From Peribacillus frigoritolerans (GTDB lineage Bacteria > Bacillota > Bacilli > Bacillales > DSM-1321), in contig JAUPFL010000001.1 in NCBI GenBank assembly GCA_030562215.1, positions 2,282,501 through 2,346,500 on the forward strand: a stretch of DNA of 64,000 nt. Direction: 5' to 3'. The position numbers and the translations under genes were made by a program. Numbering within the stretch: the first letter of the stretch is position 1; each line of letters opens with the position of its first letter. The notes beneath the pieces are model-generated. The model made no database searches and was not told where the DNA came from. It saw only the letters and a list, made by a program, of their open reading frames with translations. Below are positions 17,046-60,012 of the stretch, piece by piece.

Positions 17046-17736
17046 TCAATCGATGGTACAGATTTCAATTGGACAGTTTTCACAGTCGATTTCCTGTTTC
17101 AAATAGTCAAAGTCAAGAATCGTAATGCGTCCCTTTTTAATCGAGATGACATTGTTTTTCCTTAATTGAGCGAGCATTCGATTGACCACCTCGCGGGAAG
17201 TACCGCAAAAATTGGCGAGTTCTTGGTTTGTAAATGGAAGATTGATAATTTTACCGTTTTCTGCTTCAGTTCCATAGCTATTTGATAAACGGATGAGGGT
17301 GGAGTAAAATGCCCCTTTCTTACCGTGCAGGAGCATATCGCGGAATTTAGCCTGATTTTTACGGTTTTGAGAGGATAACCATGTCATCATCTCAACAGCA
17401 AGAAGGCTATCGGAGGCGATTTTTTTTCTCTAATGATTCTTTGGAAATAACCGCAACAGTTCCATCTTCCATCATTTTTGCATTCATCATATATTTAGGA
17501 TTTTGAGAAAACAAGACTGTTTCCCCAACCAAATCATTCTCCGAACTAATGCGTATAGTTAATTCACGACCGTCTGGAACAACCTTGCTCACTTCCACTT
17601 TCCCTTTAATAATGTAATACAAATCACTTGCTGGGGTGCTCTCATGAAAAAGGTAGCACCCTTTTTCCATATGTTTAACTTGTTGTTTATTATCTAACAT
17701 TGCATGCATCCGATTAGATAATGATAATTCATTCAT
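17046..17736 (-). CDS. fnr: Anaerobic regulator Fnr (Bacillus type, C-terminal Fe-S ligands), frame interrupted
   Basis: CRP/FNR-family activator of anaerobic genes. Cyclic-nucleotide-binding-like N-domain (GCYLFHESTPASDLYYIIKG), then a winged helix with ELANFCGTSREVVNRML. The C-terminus ends CENCPIEIC, the C-x2-C-x4-C spacing of the B. subtilis Fnr [4Fe-4S] ligands, absent from E. coli FNR at this position. The ATG at 17736 follows AAAGGTGG. An eight-A run near 17430 carries one base too many: with seven, SLEKKIASDSLLAVEMMTWL reads through. Monocistronic, divergent from arg operon. Confidence 0.92.
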
Positions 17737-17873
17737 GCCTATGACCACCTTTCAAAAACCGTCATTACTCAATTACTCCTTTGATTTAAACGAAAAAAAA
17801 CCTAGTAGTCAACAAGTTTGGATAATTTTAGGATTTTAGATGGATGATTTTTCATTTGGAATTTATGTTTTAA

Positions 17874-49691: not shown

Positions 49692-51200
49692 GTGAAGAAT
49701 ATAGTTGGCATCGGTCTGCTTATTCTCATGTTGGTCAGCACTTGGTATTTTCTAATAAATGGCGTTGATGGGGGGCTGATTTTTTATTCTAGCCTTATAT
49801 TGACCCTTTTCTTGGTGATAATTGGATTCAACATTTTCCTGGAAAATCGAGATCCCATCCAGACCATAACATGGCTTGTTATTTTTTGCGCTTTCCCATT
49901 CATCGGTTTCATTTTTTACTTTTTGTTTGGCCGTAATTTTCGGAAAGAAAGGATATTTCGCAAGAAGTACTTTTTGGATAAACAGACTTTCGTGAAAATA
50001 AGCGGCGAAGCGGGATATAATGAACGAATTAAGGAAATGGGCGAGAACCCTCAGCAGTTAATCACTCTTGCAAATAGGCTGGGGAATAGCCCTGTTTCAT
50101 TTACGACCGAAACCAGGGTTTTAAGGAATGGTGAGGAGACATTTTCCAATATCATCGAAGAATTGAAAAAGCAAGACATCATATTCATTTAGAATATTAT
50201 ATTGTTAGGGATGACCGCATTGGCGTACTGCTAAAAGACATCTTGATACAAAAAGTAAAAGAAGGGGTAAAGGTCCGTTTTCTCTATGATGCGGTTGGTT
50301 CTTGGAAGTTGGCTCGCTCTTATATCGATGAACTGAAGAATGCGGGAGCCGAAATGGTGGCCTTTGGTCCGTTGCATTTCCCTGTATTAAATAATAAATT
50401 CAACTTTCGCAACCATCGTAAAATAATTGTGATAGATGGTTCTGTCGGTTTCATTGGCGGCCTCAATATAGGGGATGAATATTTGGGACAAGACCAGAAA
50501 TTCGGTTCTTGGCGGGATACGCATCTTATCATAAAGGGGGAAGCGGTCAGGACTTTACAGCTCATATTTCTGCAGGATTGGTATTATAGCACCAATAATA
50601 GTTTTTTAAGCGATGAATACCTCATGGCCGGAATGACGAACCATCACGGACATGGCGGAGTTCAATTGATTGGCGGCGGACCGGATAGTGAATGGACAAT
50701 CATTAAAAGCCTTTTTTTAAGATGATCACTTCAGCAGAAAAGTCCGTCTGGATTGCCTCCCGTATTTCGTTCCTGATGATGATATCTTACAAGCATTGAA
50801 GGTGGCTGCTTTAAGTGGTTTGGATGTCAGGCTTCTCGTCCCGAAGAACCCCGATAAACGTATCGTATTTCATGCATCGAGAACTTATTTTCCCGAATTG
50901 CTTGCTTCGGGAGTTCGTATATTCCAATATAATGAAGGCTTCATGCATAGTAAAATCATCATTGTGGATGACCAACTGGCATCAATTGGGACAACCAATA
51001 TCGATATGAGAAGCTTTCACCTGAATTTTGAAGTCAATGCTTTTCTCTACCGGACGGAAAGTACTCAGCAGCTGGTGAATGATTACATGGAAGATATGAA
51101 GGTATCCCAAGAACTGGAGATTGATGCGTTTTCCAAACGGAATTTCGGTTTGAAATTATTGGAGTCCACTTGCCGATTGCTTTCCCCCTTCTTTAGATAG
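49692..51200 (+). CDS. cls: Cardiolipin synthase, frame interrupted
   Basis: Membrane phospholipase-D-family enzyme joining two phosphatidylglycerols. Two N-terminal helices (VGIGLLILMLVSTWYFLING and the segment around IIGFNIFLENRDPIQTITWL), then HKD motif 1 (NHRKIIVIDGSVGFIGG) and HKD motif 2 (MHSKIIIVDDQLASIGT). Breaks near 50180 (restored ..IFHLEYYIVRDDRIG), near 50722 and near 50755 (restored ITSAEKSVWIASPYFVPDDD). About 503 residues joined. GTG start after GGAGGAG. Ends SPFFR, usual for the family. Confidence 0.9.
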
Positions 51201-51212
51201 TAACTCTCTTTT

Positions 51213-51234
51213 ATGCCGATCAGGCATTTTTTTT
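51213..51234 (+). terminator. Terminator after cls
   Basis: Short stem ATGCC / GGCAT with an eight-T run. Confidence 0.75.
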
Positions 51235-51292
51235 GCACATTAAAAGGAATCCTAAGCGAAGCAGGCGAATGTAGTGGATGAGGAGGAGATGT

Positions 51293-52500
51293 ATGCTAAC
51301 TGCGATAAATAAAGATGGGGCTTGGATTACCCTCCCTGAAAAGATACCGGCAAACATGATTGATGAGTGGAGAAAATCAGCAGATTATTACTGTCCATGC
51401 TGCAAGATGGAATTGACCATCAAAGCGGGAAACGTAAAGGTTCCGCATTTCGCCCATAAAAATAGTTCTTCATGCGGTGCTTCTTCAGAACCGGAATCTG
51501 CCTATCATTTAATGGGAAAAAGAAAATTGTTTCAGTGGTTTTTATCACATGGTTATCAAGTGGATCTAGAAGCCTACCTTCCCGAAATTAAGAAAAGGGC
51601 TGATATTTTAGTTAGGATAGGAAGTAATCGCTATGCGATAGAATTTCAATGCTCAGTTATTCCCGAGGTGGAATTCATGGAAAGGTCAAGAGCCTATCAA
51701 AGCATAGGCATCAAGCCAATCTGGATCCTCGCTGCAAAAAGCTTAAAAAGGAAAGGCTTTTATGAATTCAGTTTATCCCGCTTCCAATGGCTCTTCGTCA
51801 CCGGCAGCTTCCATCATCCGTTTCTTTGGTTGTATTGTCCGGAAACTGATCATTTATCAGTATTGAAAAACCTCACTCCTTTTACCCCTAGAACCGTCTT
51901 TGCCGAATTGACAACAGCTTCTCTGAAGCTCCTTCCCCCTAGTCGGGCATTGCCCCAAAACTGCTTCCGTTTCCCTTTTCTCCCTGTATGGAGATATAAA
52001 CGAAATGGCTGGTCCCTCCATCGAGTGAAAACAGCACGCAGACGGGATCCTTTTTCGAAGTGCTATATTTACATCATATATCACCTGCGACACTTCCAAT
52101 TGAAGTGGGTGTTCCCGTCAGAGGGATGCTGTTGATCGAAACTGCCTCAATAGAATGGCAGGCATGGTTATACATGGAGGTGTTTCAAGGAAAAAGAACA
52201 GGGGAAAAGATTTCTATGGCTGATATTATCCACATTTTTAGAAAGCGTTCAAAAAAAGGGGAAATAAAGTTCAGACCGTTGCCATTGCTTCATGAAAAAA
52301 CCATCGAGTATCCTATAGGTCAATATATCAGGATTTTGGAGCAATTGGGTTATCTATCAAAGCTGGAAGAAGGGGTTTTTAAAGTTGAAAAGGAAATTAC
52401 CCTTCCTGTCACAAGTGATCAAGCTCAAATTTTGGAAAAAGATTTCTATGATAAGCATAAATTGATGATTGAAAAGGGGAATATCCAGTATAATCAGTGA
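51293..52500 (+). CDS. coiA: Competence protein CoiA, frame interrupted
   Basis: Nuclease-like protein that aids processing of incoming DNA during transformation. N-terminal zinc-finger-like CPCCKMELTIKAG..HFAHK, then a PD-(D/E)xK-type core (RADILVRIGSNRYAIEFQCS). A five-T run near 52053 lacks one base: DPFFEVLYLHHISPATLPIE restores the frame, which ends at 52500, 402 residues. ATG 51293 follows AGGAGGAG. Between cls and pepF, as in B. cereus-type genomes. Confidence 0.88.
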
Positions 52501-52687
52501 TGACATCTCTATTTATCTTGAATTCAGATGAAATGGCAGGATTATTTTTGTAAATGGAGAAATAGTAATAAGAACTGGGAATCAAAAACTTTAAGAAAGA
52601 ATGAACGCAGAATGAAGCATTGCAGTGTTCAATCGGTTTAATGAGTCAGCCCAATGGCAAGTTTCTATAGAATGGGGAGGAATTTTT

Positions 52688-54505
52688 ATGGCACAGGAAA
52701 CAAAAGCGAATACATTACCTTCAAGAAGCGAAATAGCTCCTGAAGATACTTGGAGACTGGAAGATATCTTCGCAACCGAGGAAGATTGGGAAGCTGCCTT
52801 CAAAACGGTAAAGGAAGACCTTAAGAAAGCGGAGGCACATAAAGGGACGTTGGGGGAAAGCGCAGAAAAGCTATTTGCGGCCCTTCAACTTCAAGATGAG
52901 GTTTTCGAGAAGCTAGGCAAAGTTTATTCTTATTCACATATGCGGAATGATCAAGATACAACCAATCCTTTTTATCAAGGGATGGAGGATCGGGCAAAAG
53001 CTTTATACGCCCAGGCAGCGGCTGCGTTTTCATACATGGTTCCTGAACTATTGAGTATTGACGAAAGCAAAGTGGAAGGGTTTTTGGAAGAAAAAGAAGA
53101 ATTGAAATTATATAAACATTCTTTAGAGGAAATCAATCTTCAGAGACCCCATATCTTATCAGCAGAGCAGGAAGAATTATTGGCGCAGGCATCAGAAGTA
53201 CTCGATGCATCGGGTAATACTTTCGGTATGCTTAACAATGCCGACCTGAAATTCCCGACCATCAAGGATGAAGAGGGAAATGAAGTCGAAATTACTCACG
53301 GAAGGTATATCAGGTTTCTTGAGAGTGAAGATCGCCGTGTACGTGAGGAGGCATTTAAAGGGGTATACAGCAAGTACGGGGAGTTCCGTAATACATTTGC
53401 TTCAACCCTGTCAGGTGAGGTCAAAAACCACAACTTCAATGCCACGGTTCGAAAATATGAATCAGCACGCCAAGCGGCGTTAAGTAATAATAACATTCCT
53501 GAGACCGTATACGATAATCTCGTTAAAACGGTCAACGACAACTTGCCATTACTGCACCGTTATCTTGATTTACGTAAAAAAGTACTGGAATTAGATGAAC
53601 TTCATATGTATGATCTATTCACTCCTCTTGTTAAAGAAGTGAAGATGGAAGTGACATATGACGAGGCCAAAGATTATGTCCTTAAAGGCCTTGCTCCGCT
53701 TGGGGAGGACTATTTGAACGTTTTGAAAGAGGGATTTGAAAACCGTTGGGTCGATGTGCATGAAAACAAAGGGAAACGAAGCGGTGCCTATTCTTCGGGT
53801 ACATACGGGACGAACCCTTATATTCTGATGAACTGGCAAAATAACGTCAATAACTTATTCACGCTCGTTCATGAGTTTGGGCATTCGGTCCATAGCTACT
53901 ATACACGGAAACATCAGCCATATCCATACGGGAATTATTCAATATTTGTAGCGGAAGTTGCATCGACTTGTAATGAAAACCTGTTGAATGATTATTTACT
54001 GAATTCAATCGAAGATGAAAAGAAACGCATCTATTTACTGAACCATTACCTGGAAGGTTTCCGTGGCACATTGTTCCGACAAACGATGTTTGCAGAGTTC
54101 GAACATACCATTCATTTAAAAGCTCAAAATGGGGAAGCGTTGACAGCGGATATGCTCACTAAGGAATATTATGAGCTGAACAAGAAATACTTTGGCGAGA
54201 ATGTGACGATTGATGAAGAAATCGGTTTGGAATGGGCTCGTATTCCACACTTCTACTATAATTACTATGTTTATCAATATGCAACTGGAATCAGTGCAGC
54301 AACAGCATTGAGCAAGCAAATCCTTGAAGAAGGAGAGCCGGCTGTCGAAAGGTATCTGGAGTTCTTGAAGTCAGGAAGTTCCGATTATCCGATTGAAGTA
54401 CTCAAAAAGGCCGGCGTAGATATGACAAAAGCCGAGCCTGTACAAGAAGCCATGAATGTATTCGAAGAAAAATTAAATGAGTTGGAAGAACTTTTGAAAA
54501 AATAG
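52688..54505 (+). CDS. pepF: Oligoendopeptidase F
   Basis: M3-family zinc metallopeptidase degrading short peptides in the cytoplasm. HExxH in TLVHEFGHSVHSYY with the downstream Glu in FVAEVASTCNE. 605 residues, uninterrupted. The ATG at 52688 follows GGGGAGG; an in-frame ATG at 52625 lacks a binding site. Closed by a strong terminator; RoxS-like RNAs follow. Confidence 0.95.
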   Translation: MAQETKANTLPSRSEIAPEDTWRLEDIFATEEDWEAAFKTVKEDLKKAEAHKGTLGESAEKLFAALQLQDEVFEKLGKVYSYSHMRNDQDTTNPFYQGMEDRAKALYAQAAAAFSYMVPELLSIDESKVEGFLEEKEELKLYKHSLEEINLQRPHILSAEQEELLAQASEVLDASGNTFGMLNNADLKFPTIKDEEGNEVEITHGRYIRFLESEDRRVREEAFKGVYSKYGEFRNTFASTLSGEVKNHNFNATVRKYESARQAALSNNNIPETVYDNLVKTVNDNLPLLHRYLDLRKKVLELDELHMYDLFTPLVKEVKMEVTYDEAKDYVLKGLAPLGEDYLNVLKEGFENRWVDVHENKGKRSGAYSSGTYGTNPYILMNWQNNVNNLFTLVHEFGHSVHSYYTRKHQPYPYGNYSIFVAEVASTCNENLLNDYLLNSIEDEKKRIYLLNHYLEGFRGTLFRQTMFAEFEHTIHLKAQNGEALTADMLTKEYYELNKKYFGENVTIDEEIGLEWARIPHFYYNYYVYQYATGISAATALSKQILEEGEPAVERYLEFLKSGSSDYPIEVLKKAGVDMTKAEPVQEAMNVFEEKLNELEELLKK

Positions 54506-54510
54506 GATGT

Positions 54511-54541
54511 GAAAAGGACCCGAACACTTCGGGTCCTTTTC
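54511..54541 (+). terminator. Terminator after pepF
   Basis: A 12-bp perfect stem GAAAAGGACCCG / CGGGTCCTTTTC with a 7-nt loop. Confidence 0.9.
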
Positions 54542-54560
54542 ATCTTTATATCGATGTCCG

Positions 54561-54725
54561 TCATAATCCTTTAAAACGATTTCTCTGATTTAAACTATGA
54601 AGAATTATGAAGAAAGCAAAAAATAGAATAGGGGAGGTAAAATACAGAGGAATGAGGTCCATGATACCGAGTAGCTGGACAAATAGCGACCCTATCAAGA
54701 GTATGAGTAGAATAAAGCCTTTCAA
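54561..54725 (-). CDS. Small 54-residue membrane protein
   Basis: Found by reading the minus strand: GGAGGTGACCAAA then TTG 54725. It encodes KGFILLILLIGSLFVQLLGI and LIPLYFTSPILFFAFFIILH, two membrane helices, and a basic tail NQRNRFKGL. Uninterrupted, with a near-perfect Shine-Dalgarno. Family not recognised. Convergent with pepF; its promoter must lie between it and the first small-RNA gene. Confidence 0.65.
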   Translation of the reverse strand: MKGFILLILLIGSLFVQLLGIMDLIPLYFTSPILFFAFFIILHSLNQRNRFKGL

Positions 54726-54843
54726 TTTGGTCACCTCCAACCTGGCAGCAGTAAAAACTCATCTGCTCTTTATTAGATAGTATGTTTTAGAATAAGCAGT
54801 ATTCTAAGAATATGACAATAATGTGAAGTTGCGCACAAAGTTC

Positions 54844-54873
54844 TTGCAAATAAGGTGTATAATCTGCTATAGT
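54844..54873 (+). promoter_or_regulatory. Promoter of RoxS-like RNA copy 1
   Basis: TTGCAA and TATAGT, 18-bp spacer, with TG one base before the -10 (extended -10). The start point would be near 54880-54883. No TTGTGA..TCACAA palindrome overlaps this promoter. Confidence 0.7.
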
Positions 54874-54882
54874 ACAGATATA

Positions 54883-55001
54883 GAAGTTATCACATCCCAA
54901 ACATATACCCCTTTGTTTGTTCGTCGTGAAATTTCTCCCATCCCCTTAATCGTATAAATAGATGAAAACCTCAGCAAATTTCGCGATTTGCTGGGGTTTT
55001 T
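54883..55001 (+). ncRNA. roxS: RoxS/RsaE-type regulatory RNA, copy 1
   Basis: Trans-acting small RNA family that base-pairs with mRNAs of central metabolism through C-rich single-stranded motifs. Seen here: 5' GAAGTTATCACA, then ACCCC (54907), TTTGTTTG (54912-54919) and the hallmark TTTCTCCCATCCCC (54932-54945), ending in an intrinsic terminator with arms AACCTCAGCAAAT / ATTTGCTGGGGTT and a T run (about 119 nt). In S. aureus the RsaE gene lies between pepF and a yjbH homologue; the same two genes flank this locus. A second copy lies 300 bp downstream. Confidence 0.88.
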
Positions 55002-55096
55002 CATTTGAATGAAATGTAAAAAGATTAAAATGGTAACGGTAGTAACAAAAGTTGAACGAAAGATGAAGTTATAAAAAGAAATGAATTAGTTTATTA

Positions 55097-55114
55097 TTGT
55101 GATATATTTCACAA
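55097..55114. promoter_or_regulatory. Perfect TTGTGA-N6-TCACAA palindrome between the two RNAs
   Basis: TTGTGATATATTTCACAA fits both a Rex operator (TTGTGAANNNNTTCACAA, one position off in each arm) and the Bacillus Fnr box (TGTGA-N6-TCACA, exact). It is about 100 bp after copy 1 and 165 bp before the copy 2 promoter, so its target is unclear. Fnr at 41 or so bases upstream of an unrecognised promoter cannot be excluded. Confidence 0.55.
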
Positions 55115-55225
55115 TTAGTTCATTCAAGCTATATCAGATATCAAAAACACTTAAGGCTTTAAATTAAAATTGGCTCTTATTTAGCTATATATACCAGCAG
55201 GGATAATAAAAGATGAAAAAATATA

Positions 55226-55290
55226 TATTGTGAACAATTTGTGAAAAGTTACACATATAGTTGAAACGTAAAAGGGTTATCTGTTATATT
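55226..55290 (+). promoter_or_regulatory. Promoter of RoxS-like RNA copy 2 with ResD-like half-sites
   Basis: TTGAAA (55261) and TATATT (55285) with an 18-bp spacer and an extended TG, the same layout as copy 1. Upstream at 55228-55246 are two direct TTGTGAA/TTTGTGAAA half-sites resembling ResD targets. RoxS in B. subtilis is activated by ResD; that assignment here is inferred from the motif. Confidence 0.6.
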
Positions 55291-55295
55291 ATATA

Positions 55296-55313
55296 TTGTG
55301 AAGTGAATCACAA
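55296..55313. promoter_or_regulatory. Rex/Fnr-type palindrome at the start of RoxS-like RNA copy 2
   Basis: TTGTGAAGTGAATCACAA has perfect six-base arms TTGTGA and TCACAA and overlaps the predicted transcription start, where a bound Rex repressor would block initiation. Rex senses NADH/NAD+ and is a known repressor of roxS in B. subtilis. The site also satisfies TGTGA-N6-TCACA for Fnr. Confidence 0.65.
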
Positions 55314-55412
55314 ACAAACTTATACCCCCTTTGTTTGATCGTGTAAAATTTCTCCCATCCCCTTATTTCTAAATAAAAAAACCATGCAATCTTTTGATTT
55401 GCATGGTTTTTC
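55300..55412 (+). ncRNA. roxS: RoxS/RsaE-type regulatory RNA, copy 2
   Basis: Same architecture as copy 1: 5' GAAGTGAATCACA, ACCCCC (55324), TTTGTTTG (55330-55337), TTTCTCCCATCCCC (55349-55362), then a different terminator hairpin (AAAACCATGCAA / TTGCATGGTTTT) and T run, about 113 nt. The 5' end resembles the S. aureus RsaE start more closely than copy 1 does, and it carries the Rex-type site, so this copy is likely the one with ancestral redox control. Linker sequences and the terminators have diverged while both C-rich motifs are kept. Confidence 0.88.
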
Positions 55413-55462
55413 CTTTTTATAACTAAGAAGCAGCCAAATTCATGACTGCTTCTTTGTATATC

Positions 55463-56330
55463 TCAAAACGTTCCGTATTTAGCAGGAATTTTCTCTGCCA
55501 ACTGTTTTAAAACAAGCTTTTTCATTTCCAACTCGACGTTATTCTTACTCATATTATAAACCGTTTCAATCTCCTTTGTGGCCACTAGTTTGAAACAGCT
55601 TAAAAATTCTTCGAGAGAGGAGGGGGTGCAGGGGCTGGAAGACCGTTCAGCATATCTTCTAAAATTTGAACATATACCTCGTAAGAATAGACACCTGAAA
55701 CCTTTATTCCCTCTTCTTCAATATTTTGATTGAAAAAGACAAGGGAAGGTATTTCAGTCACTTCCATTTCACTTGTGATTTTCATGTCACATTGAAAGCC
55801 TTTGGCTGCACTGGAAGAATTGATGTCATAAAGGAATTCCTCAACATCCAATCCAACCATTTTGGCACATTCGGTCAAGACTTCGATATTGGATATATCC
55901 TTTTTACCTATGAATACATATTCTTGAAGCTGCCTTAAAAAGCGAATGGCCAATTTACGGCCCTGCAATTCCGCGGCTTTTATTGCGATGGAAGCTGTAT
56001 ATGGAGAAGAAATTGGGTTTTCAGACCAAAGGCTCCCGTCACAGGACATTCCCGAGCGGCTGGCTGTCTTTTCCCAAACTTGAGCAATGTTTTCATAATT
56101 TTTATTTTTCCCCATATTAAGAGAATCGATTTTACCGCTTAAAACATGGCGTAAACTGAACAATTGGCCATATTCTATCTGTAATTTCCTAATAATTGGT
56201 TCTAAGCCCCAGCATTCGGGACAAAGCGGATCAACAAAAACATAAATTTCAATTGGCTTTTTCCTATATCATAGCAATGCTGCGTCTTGATCCAATCGGA
56301 AATATTGAAAACTGGTTTTTGTGCGCTCAA
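55463..56330 (-). CDS. spxH: Spx-degradation adaptor SpxH (YjbH), frame interrupted
   Basis: Thioredoxin-like (DsbA-fold) adaptor that delivers Spx to ClpXP. N-terminal FVDPLCPECWGLEPIIRKLQ (CxxC), SCDGSLWSENPISSPYTASI and AAELQGRKLAIRFLRQLQE are typical. TTG 56330 after AAAGGAG opens SAQKPVFNISDWIKTQHCYD; an A run near 56257 lacks one base before KKPIEIYVFVD. A second break near 55612 (restored EEFLSCFKLVATKEIETVYN) leads to KYGTF and the stop at 55463. Start overlaps the yjbI stop (TTGA), so the two genes form an operon. Confidence 0.9.
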
Positions 56331-56729
56331 CTGTCTTCTCCTTTCCCGTCAGTTCCGGATGTATTGATCATATGCTGTGCCGTCAAATAGAGGCGGTGAT
56401 AGAAAAACTCCTAATCTCACCTTCAAGGCCAACTTCGTCCATAGCTTGATACATGCATGAGAGCCAGGCTTTCGCACGTTCTGGTGTAATTTCAAAAGGT
56501 ATATGTCGAGCCCGCAACATAGGATGGCCATGCTCTTCGGTATATAAAGAGGGACCCCTAAATATTGAGTCATGAATTGTTTTTGCTTACGGACCGTTTC
56601 AGTTAAATCGTCAGGGAATATTGGCTGCAGATCCGGGTGTTGACTAACGTTGGAGTAAAACACATCAATTAATTTGTGTAATTGCCCTTCTCCAATTAAT
56701 TCATATGGTGTAGGGTTCCCTTGCATCAT
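56327..56729 (-). CDS. yjbI: Truncated haemoglobin (YjbI-like), frame interrupted
   Basis: Group II truncated haemoglobin that binds O2 or NO. Reads GEGQLHKLIDVFYSNVSQHP, FPDDLTETVRKQKQFMTQYL; one G is missing in GGGG near 56555, after which GGPSLYTEEHGHPMLRARHI (proximal His) and AKAWLSCMYQAMDEVGLEGE follow. A T run near 56413 also lacks one base. The gene ends in the TTGA overlap with spxH. ATG 56729 after AAAGGAG. The pairing of a haemoglobin with the Spx adaptor is conserved in Bacillus. Confidence 0.9.
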
Positions 56730-56921
56730 GTTGATTACTCCTTTTAAAGAAAGATGGTTGATATTTATTCATATTTTATCAATGACGTACTGATATAACA
56801 AATATATAGCTTAAAGAAAATTTTACATCTGTAGTATTACACAGGGGAATGGTTGAAAATGAAAGCTTTTGGGGGCTTTACCATTTGCTCGGGGTGCGTG
56901 GAAGAAGCATATATAGACATG

Positions 56922-56955
56922 AAAAAACTGACCCGTCATGAACAAACAGGGTCAG
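56922..56955 (-). terminator. Terminator after the lytic transglycosylase gene
   Basis: CTGACCC / GGGTCAG stem with TTTTTTC on the minus strand, just beyond the stop codon. Confidence 0.85.
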
Positions 56956-56961
56956 CTTGCT

Positions 56962-57618
56962 TTAGCTTGAAAATGTGCCAAAAACTTTTTGAACATAGTT
57001 CTGAGTTTCTTTAAAAGGCGGGATGCCGTTATATTTATCGACATTTCCTGGTCCTGCATTATAAGCAGCAAGGGCAACCTGGATGTCCCCGTCATAACGG
57101 GCCATCATTTGACTTAAATATTTACTCCCGCCCATGATGTTTTGTTCTGGATCGGTTGCATCATCCACCCCAAGGCTTTTAGCAGTTGCTGGCATTAACT
57201 GCATAAGGCCAGTTGCACCCGCATAACTGGTGGCTTCAGGGTTGAAGTTCGATTCTTGTTTAATGACAGACTTAATCAGTTTTTCCGGGAGATTATATAA
57301 ACTTGCCGCCTGGCTGATGATATGATCATAGTTTGTTGCGGTTTCGCTGCTCTGATTGTTAGCATGGGCAGTGGATATCGGGTTGATGTTCATGTATGTC
57401 AGGCCGCCGGGTTGAAGAAAGGACTTCGTTTCCGCTTCCACATTGGATAATAAGGAACCCAATGTCTGTGAAGTACCTTCCAGAGCATCACCCGAAACCA
57501 GTGACGATAGCATGTCCTGGAAAACGGATCGAGATGAATTTGTATTTTTGATGTTGTCGTTCGTGAATTGCTGGATTGCCTGCAATTCCATAAACGTTTT
57601 GAAATCTTGGATTTTCAA
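56962..57618 (-). CDS. yjbJ: Lytic transglycosylase-like protein (YjbJ)
   Basis: Soluble SLT-family enzyme cleaving peptidoglycan. The C-terminal half has the catalytic Glu in VIKQESNFNPEATSYAGATG, LMQLMPATAKSLG and AYNAGPGNVDKYNG. The N-terminal ~100 residues are helical and of unknown role, and no signal peptide is seen. TTG 57618 is preferred: GGAGGT lies 7 nt upstream, while the GTG at 57627 overlaps it. 218 residues, uninterrupted. Confidence 0.88.
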   Translation of the reverse strand: MKIQDFKTFMELQAIQQFTNDNIKNTNSSRSVFQDMLSSLVSGDALEGTSQTLGSLLSNVEAETKSFLQPGGLTYMNINPISTAHANNQSSETATNYDHIISQAASLYNLPEKLIKSVIKQESNFNPEATSYAGATGLMQLMPATAKSLGVDDATDPEQNIMGGSKYLSQMMARYDGDIQVALAAYNAGPGNVDKYNGIPPFKETQNYVQKVFGTFSS

Positions 57619-57649
57619 ACTCTCCACCTCCGAATGGGTTCAAACAGGA

Positions 57650-58227
57650 TTATTCCTGGAATTTGGCACGATAAAACCTCTTAACCTTATTTTCGGTTTC
57701 CCTTACCGGAATTTGAAGGGTTTCAAGGAGGGTCAGGAAATTTTTTTCCCGGCTTTTGCATCCGTCACTTCATATTCAAGCTCAAAATCTTCCTGATTCA
57801 AATACGAACTATGATCTAAAACGATTAAACCCTCTTTGTAAGGAAATTCAAAACGGTCTGTCTTTAGTGTCCCGAAGCATGTAAAGTCTTTTGGATCAAT
57901 TCCGCATTCGAGGATAAGATGTCGGATCCCGCCATCAGGGAATATGTTATGTTTCAGGAACGCATATGCGGTTCCTTCAGGAATATCCTGATTCGTTTCC
58001 AATAATCCTTCTGTAGCTGGCTGTTTTAAAGTCAGCTCGTAATGCCCGTTTTTCTCCCTGATCCTAAGTGCAGAGTCTTGCTTTTTCAAAGAGAATCCAG
58101 GTGTATCGAAGTAATGGTTTTTCTGTGTTTTAAAGTTCGATGCCCCGACATGAAAGTAGTCGATCAGTTGGCGAAATTCTTTTTTGTTTAAGAGGTTTTT
58201 AAATTCAATTTCAATATGCTGGTTCAT
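57650..58227 (-). CDS. yjbK: CYTH-domain protein (YjbK), frame interrupted near the end
   Basis: CYTH/triphosphate-tunnel-fold protein, likely acting on a triphosphorylated or adenylated substrate. The signature ExExK is at the start (HIEIEFKNLL), followed by YFDTPGFSLKKQDSALRIRE and DHSSYLNQEDFELEYEVTD. An A run near 57737 lacks one base; restored, FLTLLETLQIPVRETENKVK RFYRAKFQE ends at 57650, about 192 residues. Located next to relQ, as in B. subtilis. Confidence 0.88.
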
Positions 58228-58438
58228 GTGTTACCTTCCTTTCTGGCTGATTCTTAGGTTAATCATATAAGAACCATTCCAGCTGTCAAATTGAATTCAA
58301 TAATTTTTTGCTATTGTACTTGAATATTTAGGAATCAATTGCAGGATATGATAAAATATAAACGTTGAGCACGAGAATTGAGTCATCGTATATATAGAAA
58401 TTTAATACATACTTTTTGCTAGGGAAAGATTTAATAGG

Positions 58439-58479
58439 ATCCAGTGGGGAATTTTGCATAAGTCATGTGACTTCTGGAT
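58439..58479 (+). other. Structured leader candidate upstream of relQ
   Basis: ATCCAG and CTGGAT enclose a 5-bp inner hairpin (AAGTC-ATGT-GACTT) stacked directly on the closing arm. There is no T run. It lies about 70 bp before relQ, inside the 320-bp gap 58228-58547, which otherwise shows only AT-rich promoter-like sequence (around 58335-58365) and no gene. Confidence 0.4.
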
Positions 58480-58547
58480 TCAGGAGAGCGTTCTGCCCAT
58501 ACCAGAGTTGAACAGGCGCTTTTTAGATAGATATAGGTGGTGTGGCA

Positions 58548-59168
58548 ATGGAGAGTTGGGACGATTTCTTGGCGCCTTATACTCAGGCTGTCGAAGAATT
58601 AAAGGTTAAGCTAAAGGGTTTAAGGAAACAGTTTGAGAGAGAGAATATTCACTCACCGATCGAATTTGTAACAGGCAGGGTAAAGCCGATTGTCAGCATA
58701 TTGGATAAGGCGAGCCTAAAGGACATTCCCATTGATAAATTGGGAACTGAAATTCAGGATATTGCAGGGCTTCGCATGATGTGCCAGTTCGTGGATGATA
58801 TCGAACAGGTAGTTGAACTATTACGAGGCCGCAATGACTTCGAGATAGTCGAGGAGAGGAATTATATTTCCCATAAAAAAGCAAGCGGTTATCGATCTTA
58901 TCATGTTGTAATCCGCTATCCGGTCCAGACGATACATGGCGAAAAGAATATCCTTGCCGAAATTCAAATCAGGACTCTTGCGATGAATTTTTGGGCGACG
59001 ATTGAACATTCTTTAAATTATAAATATAAAGGCATTTTCCCGGAAGATATTCAACTGCGGCTCAAACGCGCAGCTGAAGCGGCCTTCCTGCTCGATGCAG
59101 AAATGTCGCAAATCCGTACGGAAATCCAGGAAGCACAGCGTCTTTTTTCCAGGAAGAAAGATTCTTGA
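58548..59168 (+). CDS. relQ: Small alarmone synthetase RelQ (YjbM/SasB)
   Basis: Cytoplasmic (p)ppGpp synthetase without hydrolase domain. GRVKPIVSILDKASLKDI, IQDIAGLRMMCQFVDDI, SGYRSYHVVIRYP and EIQIRTLAMNFWATIEHSLN (synthetase active site) are intact. ATG 58548 follows AGGTGGTG; 206 residues, uninterrupted. Starts a cluster relQ-nadK-yjbO, 49 and 17 nt gaps, probably one operon. Confidence 0.93.
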   Translation: MESWDDFLAPYTQAVEELKVKLKGLRKQFERENIHSPIEFVTGRVKPIVSILDKASLKDIPIDKLGTEIQDIAGLRMMCQFVDDIEQVVELLRGRNDFEIVEERNYISHKKASGYRSYHVVIRYPVQTIHGEKNILAEIQIRTLAMNFWATIEHSLNYKYKGIFPEDIQLRLKRAAEAAFLLDAEMSQIRTEIQEAQRLFSRKKDS

Positions 59169-59217
59169 ACGCATAAATGGGAAAACGAGAAGAAGTCTAA
59201 TTTGAAGGTGGGATTAC

Positions 59218-60012
59218 ATGAAATTTGCGATTACGTCAAAAGGAGATGCTAAATCGAATACTTTAATGCAAAGGATGCGAACGTATCTCCAGGACTTTCA
59301 TTTGGAATATGACGAAGATCAGCCGGATATTGTCATTTCTGTCGGTGGTGATGGCACTTTATTATATGCTTTTCACCGGTATAAGAATCGATTGGATAAA
59401 ACCGCCTTTGTTGGTGTACATACAGGACATCTTGGGTTTTATGCAGATTGGACCCCTGATGAAATCGAAAAATTGGTGATAGCTTTAGCGAAAACCCCAT
59501 TTCAAATAGTGGAATATCCACTGCTCGAAACGATTGTCCGTTATCAGCATGGAGGACGGGAAGCCAGATTTTTGGCTTTGAATGAATCGACAGTCAAAAG
59601 TGTTGAAGGGACGCTTGTAATGGACGTTGAAATACGCGGCCAGCATTTCGAGACGTTCCGTGGAGATGGTTTATGCATTGCGACGCCATCTGGAAGCACG
59701 GCGTATAATAAGGCGCTTGGCGGGGCCATCGTCCATCCATCAATCGATGCCATCCAGATTACCGAATTGGCATCCATTAATAACCGGGTATTTAGAACGG
59801 TAGGATCTCCACTTCTGCTGCCGGCACATCATACATGCATGTTCAGGCCGGTAAATGCGGTCAATTTTCAAATTACTGTCGACCATTTGTCCTTGCTTCA
59901 GGAGAATGTAAAGTCGATACAGTGCCGAGTGGCAGATGAAAAGATCCGATTTGCCAGATTCCGCCCTTTTCCTTTCTGGAAAAGAGTGCATGATTCATTT
60001 ATTGCTAATTAA
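59218..60012 (+). CDS. nadK: NAD kinase
   Basis: Phosphorylates NAD+ to NADP+. The GGDGT motif ([16 protein letters not shown]) with the conserved Asp, the ALNESTVKS segment (NE/D motif) and [20 protein letters not shown] are present. 264 residues, uninterrupted, ATG after AAGGTGG. Second gene in the relQ cluster. Confidence 0.95.

Follow-up and report, generated by a model that had tools for sequence, protein, structure and literature searches.

The DNA between pepF and spxH of Peribacillus frigoritolerans raises the question of whether one RoxS/RsaE-type small RNA or two are encoded there and, if two, what keeps them both. The window analysed here is one stretch of 64,000 nucleotides, to which all positions refer unless another locus is named. 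A first-pass annotation had read in it a tandem duplicate of two ~115-nt units ~300 bp apart, which would have diverged into two differently controlled RNAs with overlapping targets. We consider it likely that these are tandem sibling RoxS/RsaE small RNAs that stem from an old duplication, and that they were kept because the two genes divide the control of one RNA.

Two RoxS/RsaE-type genes between pepF and spxH

The features of the pair and its neighbours are as follows.

52682..54505, plus strand: pepF, oligoendopeptidase F, upstream neighbour (TIGR00181, 733.9 bits)
54811..54880, plus strand: promoter region of copy A, with ATGTGAAG box, -35 and extended -10 (identity 0.90 over -75..-1, 20 genomes)
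54881..55000, plus strand: copy A, RoxS/RsaE-type small RNA below the gathering score (61.8 bits; fold z -5.9; identity 0.93 in 20 genomes)
55261..55290, plus strand: promoter of copy B, TTGAAA - 18 bp - TATATT, extended -10 (identity 0.86 over -75..-1, 20 genomes)
55298..55411, plus strand: copy B, RoxS/RsaE small RNA (83.4 bits, above the gathering score; fold z -5.5)
55600..56163, minus strand: fragment of spxH (yjbH), convergent neighbour on the downstream side, frameshifted in the assembly (PF13743, Thioredoxin_5, 198 bits)

When positions 50000-60000 were searched with cmscan, both copies matched the RsaE family (RF01820) on the plus strand, with E-values of 1.7e-8 (copy A) and 4.7e-13 (copy B), and each match covered the model in full, from 1 to 112. 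The Rfam gathering score for RsaE is 79; over the whole window copy B alone passes it, and under Rfam's rule copy A, which falls below, goes unannotated. The two covariance matches that had been anticipated are thus obtained if judged by E-value, and reduced to copy B if judged by gathering score. The RNAs measure 120 nt (A) and 114 nt (B), with a gap of 297 nt and a start-to-start distance of 417 nt, in agreement with the proposed size and spacing. The ACCCC, TTTGTTTG and TTTCTCCCATCCCC motifs were found in both copies alike, as claimed; both carry the C-rich seeds ACCCCUUUGUUUG (ACCCCCUUUGUUUG in B) and UUUCUCCCAUCCCC, and the seed of the window is identical between the copies over 16 nt. 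The pair is flanked by pepF (TIGR00181) upstream and an spxH-type gene (PF13743), the yjbH homologue, downstream, which is the location expected of RsaE/RoxS and the one given in the first-pass annotation. Other Rfam models with matches over the pair, among them rli61, FsrA, trpB and sau-5971, all scored far under their own gathering scores.

Both RNAs are predicted to fold into a 5' hairpin, an open C-rich stretch, a 3' terminator stem and a U tail, and none of 200 shuffles of either copy was as stable. RoxS of Bacillus subtilis (RF01820) has the same 5' hairpin, single-stranded C-rich seeds, terminator and upstream TGTGAA box, and RsaE of Staphylococcus aureus belongs to the same Rfam family. 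The terminators that had been proposed agree with these folds, though a pattern scanner listed none on the plus strand at A or B and placed the stem of A on the minus strand. In stem alignments of 19 of the 21 copies A and B of the main clade (defined below; the near-duplicates G025 and G027 were excluded), 97.6% (A) and 97.2% (B) of the stem cells are paired. Changes on both sides were seen in 4 pairs (A) and 5 pairs (B), all within the terminator stems; the 5' stems are almost invariant and therefore of little help on covariation. Copy B of G020 has a different terminator, which by eye resembles a stem of the window at about 55425-55455.

The extended -10 layout with 18-bp spacers that had been described for both units was recovered. 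In copy A the -35 (TTGCAA) lies at 54844 and is followed by 18 bp and TATAGT, the extended -10 TGCTATAGT ending at 54873; TG precedes the -10 in both promoters (54844-54873 and 55261-55290). A single ATGTGAAG box, ResD-like, lies at 54821, about -60 of copy A. Promoter-like patterns are not in excess of chance here (7 found, 5.3 expected), and the support for both promoters is thus their conservation across genomes.

The assembly of the window's genome is 87.5% complete. Frameshifts break spxH and the adjoining gene, a yjbI-type globin judged by eye (55463-56729, minus strand), and the ResB and Fnr-type genes of this genome also look split; all four interruptions are probably assembly errors. 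The Crp/Fnr-type gene, split by a frameshift, lies at ~17046-17748 (minus strand) beside what by eye is a moaA-like gene. CCCCC and GTGTAAAA set copy B of the window apart from the 18 B copies aligned with it and may likewise be assembly errors; since the assembly is frameshifted, such single-base oddities are best given no weight for now. Between pepF and copy A we also note a small conserved ORF (54561-54740, minus strand), hydrophobic and of ~57 aa, for which a Pfam search gave no match.

Copy number and history of the duplication

RsaE is present in 43/43 genomes of the window's family. Comparison of the pepF-spxH gap in these relatives revealed the tandem pair in 28/36 genomes of the window's genus and a single copy in the other 8/36, as well as in 7/7 outgroup genomes from three other genera. 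A permissive rescan of the eight single-copy genus genomes gave no second copy; G012, the only one with extra matches, had them elsewhere in the genome (E 0.1-0.4). Weak RsaE matches on contig C5 of G016 and C62 of G019 were set aside, their sequences being unlike the pair. In wider samples RsaE was found in 189/299 genomes at the level of the order, with two copies only in five genus members and G188, and in 79/299 at the level of the class, with two copies only in the window's own genome; weak second copies could escape both scans, whose cut-off was E <= 1e-4 and whose filters were stricter. When 80 named pepF loci were scanned with a loose pattern, 50 contained one copy or more; two copies were seen only in the genus member FJAT-29882 (G029) and in Oceanobacillus caeni.

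The two copies of G188 are near-identical to each other, which looks like a separate, recent duplication. Near-identical tandem pairs beyond the genus occur in G188 (L163:2500-3400) and O. caeni (L116), perhaps as one lineage, and by eye a small ORF similar to that upstream of copy A seemingly sits between the two copies of G188. In G038, spxH lies ~1.8 kb farther from copy B than in relatives (L072), which suggests that the gap was enlarged by an insertion.

We refer to 21 genomes as the main clade, namely all those with pairs minus G009, G010, G018, G039, G016, G017 and G029. Copy A is under the gathering score in 21/21 of them, and annotation at that score overlooks one copy of two in each. 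Among the matches listed in open-licence PMC literature, none described two RoxS/RsaE genes in one genome, and RoxS of B. subtilis is treated as a single gene in the extracts of that literature, whereas there are two here. A similar comparison holds for S. aureus RsaE, since among the 299 class-level genomes, which presumably include staphylococci, only the window's genome has two copies. Tandem sibling small RNAs are found likewise in OmrA/OmrB of Escherichia coli and PrrF1/PrrF2 of Pseudomonas aeruginosa, RNAs unrelated to RoxS.

In a species tree built from pepF and spxH of the 43 genomes, the pair-bearing members of the genus fall together in one group, apart from the single-copy G040, which is placed inside with weak support (0.61) and whose fetched locus yielded no pepF. 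The copy tree, with 73 copies in all, unites copy A from 23 genomes in a single clade (ultrafast bootstrap 100); a second clade (96) holds copy B from all 23 plus two comK-linked copies. The duplication is thus older than the split of these 23 genomes. The remaining pairs are less simple. The copies of G018 sit on long branches and attach, moderately supported, one to the A side (83) and one to the B side (71); G039_B groups with G018_A (76), and G039_A with the G016 group (89). Copies A and B of G016, G017 and G029 cluster together (97), as after gene conversion or a duplication of their own. For G009 and G010, copy B lies inside the main-clade B group (74), in conflict with the species tree. 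Taken together, the copy counts (36 genus genomes and 7 outgroups), the species tree and the copy tree support the claim of duplication followed by divergence, and each pair-bearing genome holds two related small RNA genes from one ancestor. The copy tree also supports the descent of copy A from the RsaE/RoxS family.

A third RoxS copy is present ~77 kb from the pair on the other strand, near comK (PF06338), and was located in the following places.

G000 C1:2260178-2260284 (L034:2179-2285), minus strand: third copy of the window's genome, outside the window (34.4 bits)
L035:2127-2237: third copy near comK

It is recognisable by BLAST in 9 of the 25 comK loci examined (from 36 genomes; two of the 9 are the queries), with scores of 82.7 bits in G011, which is above the gathering score, 64.4 in G038, 44 in G028 and 38.1 in G008. 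In G013, G026 and G027 deletions run through its seed. Both comK-linked copies placed in the copy tree group with copy B, from which this gene appears to derive, best kept in G011 and decaying elsewhere. The RoxS family of this genus hence displays copy birth, split and decay.

Could copy A be a duplicate in decay and heading for loss, like the comK copy? Its scores below the gathering score throughout the main clade and the precedent near comK would fit, but the conservation of copy A does not. Over 20 genomes the mean identity is 0.51 in the linker versus 0.955 in the core of A and 0.962 in that of B, and the former difference indicates that copy A is under constraint; the stretch upstream of A is also conserved (0.87), so that this constraint stands out against the linker only. 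The identity of the whole A RNA and its paired stem cells with changes on both sides of 4 pairs argue in the same direction, the comK copy by contrast being deleted through its seed in three genomes, and we regard decay of copy A as highly improbable.

Rex-type operators of the two copies

In B. subtilis, Rex represses RoxS and binds the roxS promoter region, with a predicted site just downstream of the start site (PMC5419742), and conservation of a Rex site downstream of the promoter has been reported in the same paper for S. aureus RsaE. The window's genome encodes a DNA-binding domain of the Rex type (PF06971). The regulatory elements discussed below are these.

54878..54895, plus strand: copy A, eroded Rex operator (ATATAGAAGTTATCACAT, 7 of 12 positions)
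55097..55114, no strand assigned: Rex-type operator, distal (TTGTGATATATTTCACAA, 12 of 12); the copy B start-site operator follows 199 bp downstream
55228..55245, plus strand: pair of ResD-like TTGTGAA boxes before copy B
55296..55313, no strand assigned: copy B, Rex operator at the start site (TTGTGAAGTGAATCACAA, 12 of 12)

Start sites were scored against TTGTGA-N6-TCACAA over its 12 informative positions; the best of 15 random placements has a mean of 6.05, and 11 or more is reached with P = 0.0002. Single copies keep 9-11 positions in 15/15 cases, none exceeding 11. In the main clade, copy A scores 6-7 in 21/21 genomes, which is the level of chance, and copy B scores 12 in 16/21 and 11 in 5/21 (G025, for instance, has 7 in A and 11 in B). 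A predicted operator just 3' of the promoter, as in RsaE/RoxS, is therefore present in copy B of the window, which like B. subtilis RoxS has its start-site Rex site at a consensus score, and absent from copy A. Judged by these dyads, main-clade copy A has lost the start-site Rex operator whereas copy B has kept a near-perfect one. Outside the main clade, G009 and G010 are intermediate (9 in both A copies; 12 and 11 in B), G018 has 11 (A) and 10 (B), G016, G017 and G029 keep 12 of 12 in both copies, and G039 is reversed, with the operator retained in A (11) and lost in B (8). These patterns confine the operator split to the main clade; it is not universal among pairs. The 21 genomes are close relatives, so that the counts are not independent events, and operator loss in A and gain before B may each have happened once and been kept thereafter.

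The gain before B concerns a second, distal dyad in the linker, which reaches at least 11 of 12 positions in 20/21 main-clade genomes; G020 is the only one without it. Outside these promoter regions, 0 of 197,581 positions of the same loci score as high, and the linkers of the other 7 genomes with pairs all stay below 11. The arms of this dyad have an identity of 0.95 in the 20 genomes, a figure partly forced by the selection for at least 11 positions, versus 0.41 for its flanks, and the distance between the two copy B operators is 164-210 bp. The two well-assembled relatives G013 and G022 hold 3 and 4 perfect dyads genome-wide, two of each at this locus, versus 0 perfect sites for a reversed control pattern. 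The third site of G013 lies directly upstream of the L-lactate dehydrogenase gene (ldh), the Rex target that PMC5419742 took as its positive control; this favours Rex as the protein that binds. Neither of the two further sites of G022 was tied to a known Rex target.

Since proteins of the Crp/Fnr type are encoded in the genus, Fnr stays a rival binder, and the palindromes might be Fnr/Crp-type sites through which copy B answers oxygen by way of Fnr, and not NADH by way of Rex. The Fnr consensus, TGTGA-N6-TCACA, fits the same dyads, a Crp/Fnr-family protein was found in 6/6 genomes examined, and the proteins of this type in G013 and in the window terminate in a cysteine cluster. However, a position at the start site suits a repressor, and a site near -197 is distant from the usual Fnr activation positions. 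Also against Fnr are the only other perfect site of G013, which precedes a Rex target, and the finding that Rex binds the promoter region of B. subtilis roxS (PMC5419742), and we hold the Fnr reading to be unlikely.

The pair could also be a redundant one kept for dosage, in which ResD dominates both copies and the operator differences are drift of little effect. The seeds and the promoter layout common to both copies are compatible with this, as are the perfect operators in both copies of G016, G017 and G029. Perfect copy B operators in 16/21 main-clade genomes, where single copies have 11 positions at most, and a second operator conserved amid unconserved DNA are not expected under drift, and make such a dosage pair rather improbable in our judgement.

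Helical phasing of the two Rex-type operators was considered and dropped. R was 0.43 at 10.5 bp and 0.60 at 11.0 in the 20 genomes, and 0.41 at 10.5 in 17 less redundant ones, with a maximum of 0.67 at the edge of the scan range (11.6); a uniform null gave p = 0.001 for the maximum. Given the relatedness of the genomes and an R of 0.47 for a control distance, however, the result is uninterpretable.

Divided inputs and shared targets

The other known input of RoxS is ResD, which activates it from a proposed site near -65 (PMC4409812), and the ResB gene of the window's genome marks a res locus. WTGTGAA boxes at -75..-36, taken as ResD-like from position and TGTGAA alone, number one in 15/15 single copies and 21/21 main-clade A copies, and two in 19/21 main-clade B copies. 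In B. subtilis, RoxS integrates NO/oxygen (ResD) and NADH (Rex) at one promoter (PMC4409812, PMC5419742); in the pair these inputs apparently are separated onto two.

Returning to siblings that divide the control of one RNA, we can picture the division as follows. Copy A would be induced via ResDE, by NO and low oxygen, whatever the NADH level, and copy B would be held tightly by Rex at two operators and freed only at high NADH/NAD+. The distal operator might act by looping, titration or the blocking of activators. Ribosome-binding sites would meet an almost identical single-stranded UUUCUCCCAUCCCCUU in both RNAs, so that two signals would feed one overlapping regulon. This fuller version, with one copy Rex-blind, the other under two Rex operators, the second one acquired and distal, and two ResD-like boxes, repression that is possibly cooperative or looped, a shared seed, and a third copy that was placed elsewhere and is dying out, we rate at about even chances from the sequence comparisons. 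As to the proposal that the two RNAs are differently controlled, its anatomical half stands, with an operator lost in A and a second one before B, while its functional half is a prediction.

Compared with B. subtilis RoxS, copy A is devoid of a Rex operator and copy B has an additional, distal one, and the divergence of the switches of two RoxS copies appears to be what is new here. OmrA and OmrB have their ends in common but not their promoter sequence or expression (PMC4211561); here, unlike in OmrA/OmrB and PrrF1/PrrF2, the site of one known repressor is lost in one copy and doubled in the other. If true, the pair would exemplify how sibling small RNAs partition their inputs in nature, by the loss and gain of operators. 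The same RNA message may now answer two different signals, and the pair would offer a natural experiment on the contribution of each input.

That the targets of the two RNAs overlap, also proposed, gained some support. The identical 16-nt seed and a predicted pairing of both RNAs with the Shine-Dalgarno region of sucC (A -36.5, B -40.0 kcal/mol; 0/200 shuffles as good) speak for it, sucCD being a RoxS target in B. subtilis (PMC8216469). On the other side, pairing with ppnKB, the second known target examined, with its start codon as assumed, was no better than shuffles for A or B. For ppnKA, which lies nearby, the shuffle p was 0.06 (A) and 0.36 (B).

RoxS carries a repeated CCCCUUUGUU (PMC4409812), which occurs twice in 12/15 single copies, 5/21 main-clade A copies and 0/21 main-clade B copies. 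A 5' CACAUCCCAAAC, by a pattern that also accepts U for the last A before UCCC, is found in 18/21 main-clade A copies, 0/15 single copies and 0/21 main-clade B copies. With UCCC gained near the 5' end in most A copies and the second CCCCUUUGUU repeat lost in B, the target ranges may differ marginally. The core seed itself has one C-to-U change in 6/21 main-clade A copies, which read CUCCUAUCCCC, and one C-to-G change in copy B of G011.
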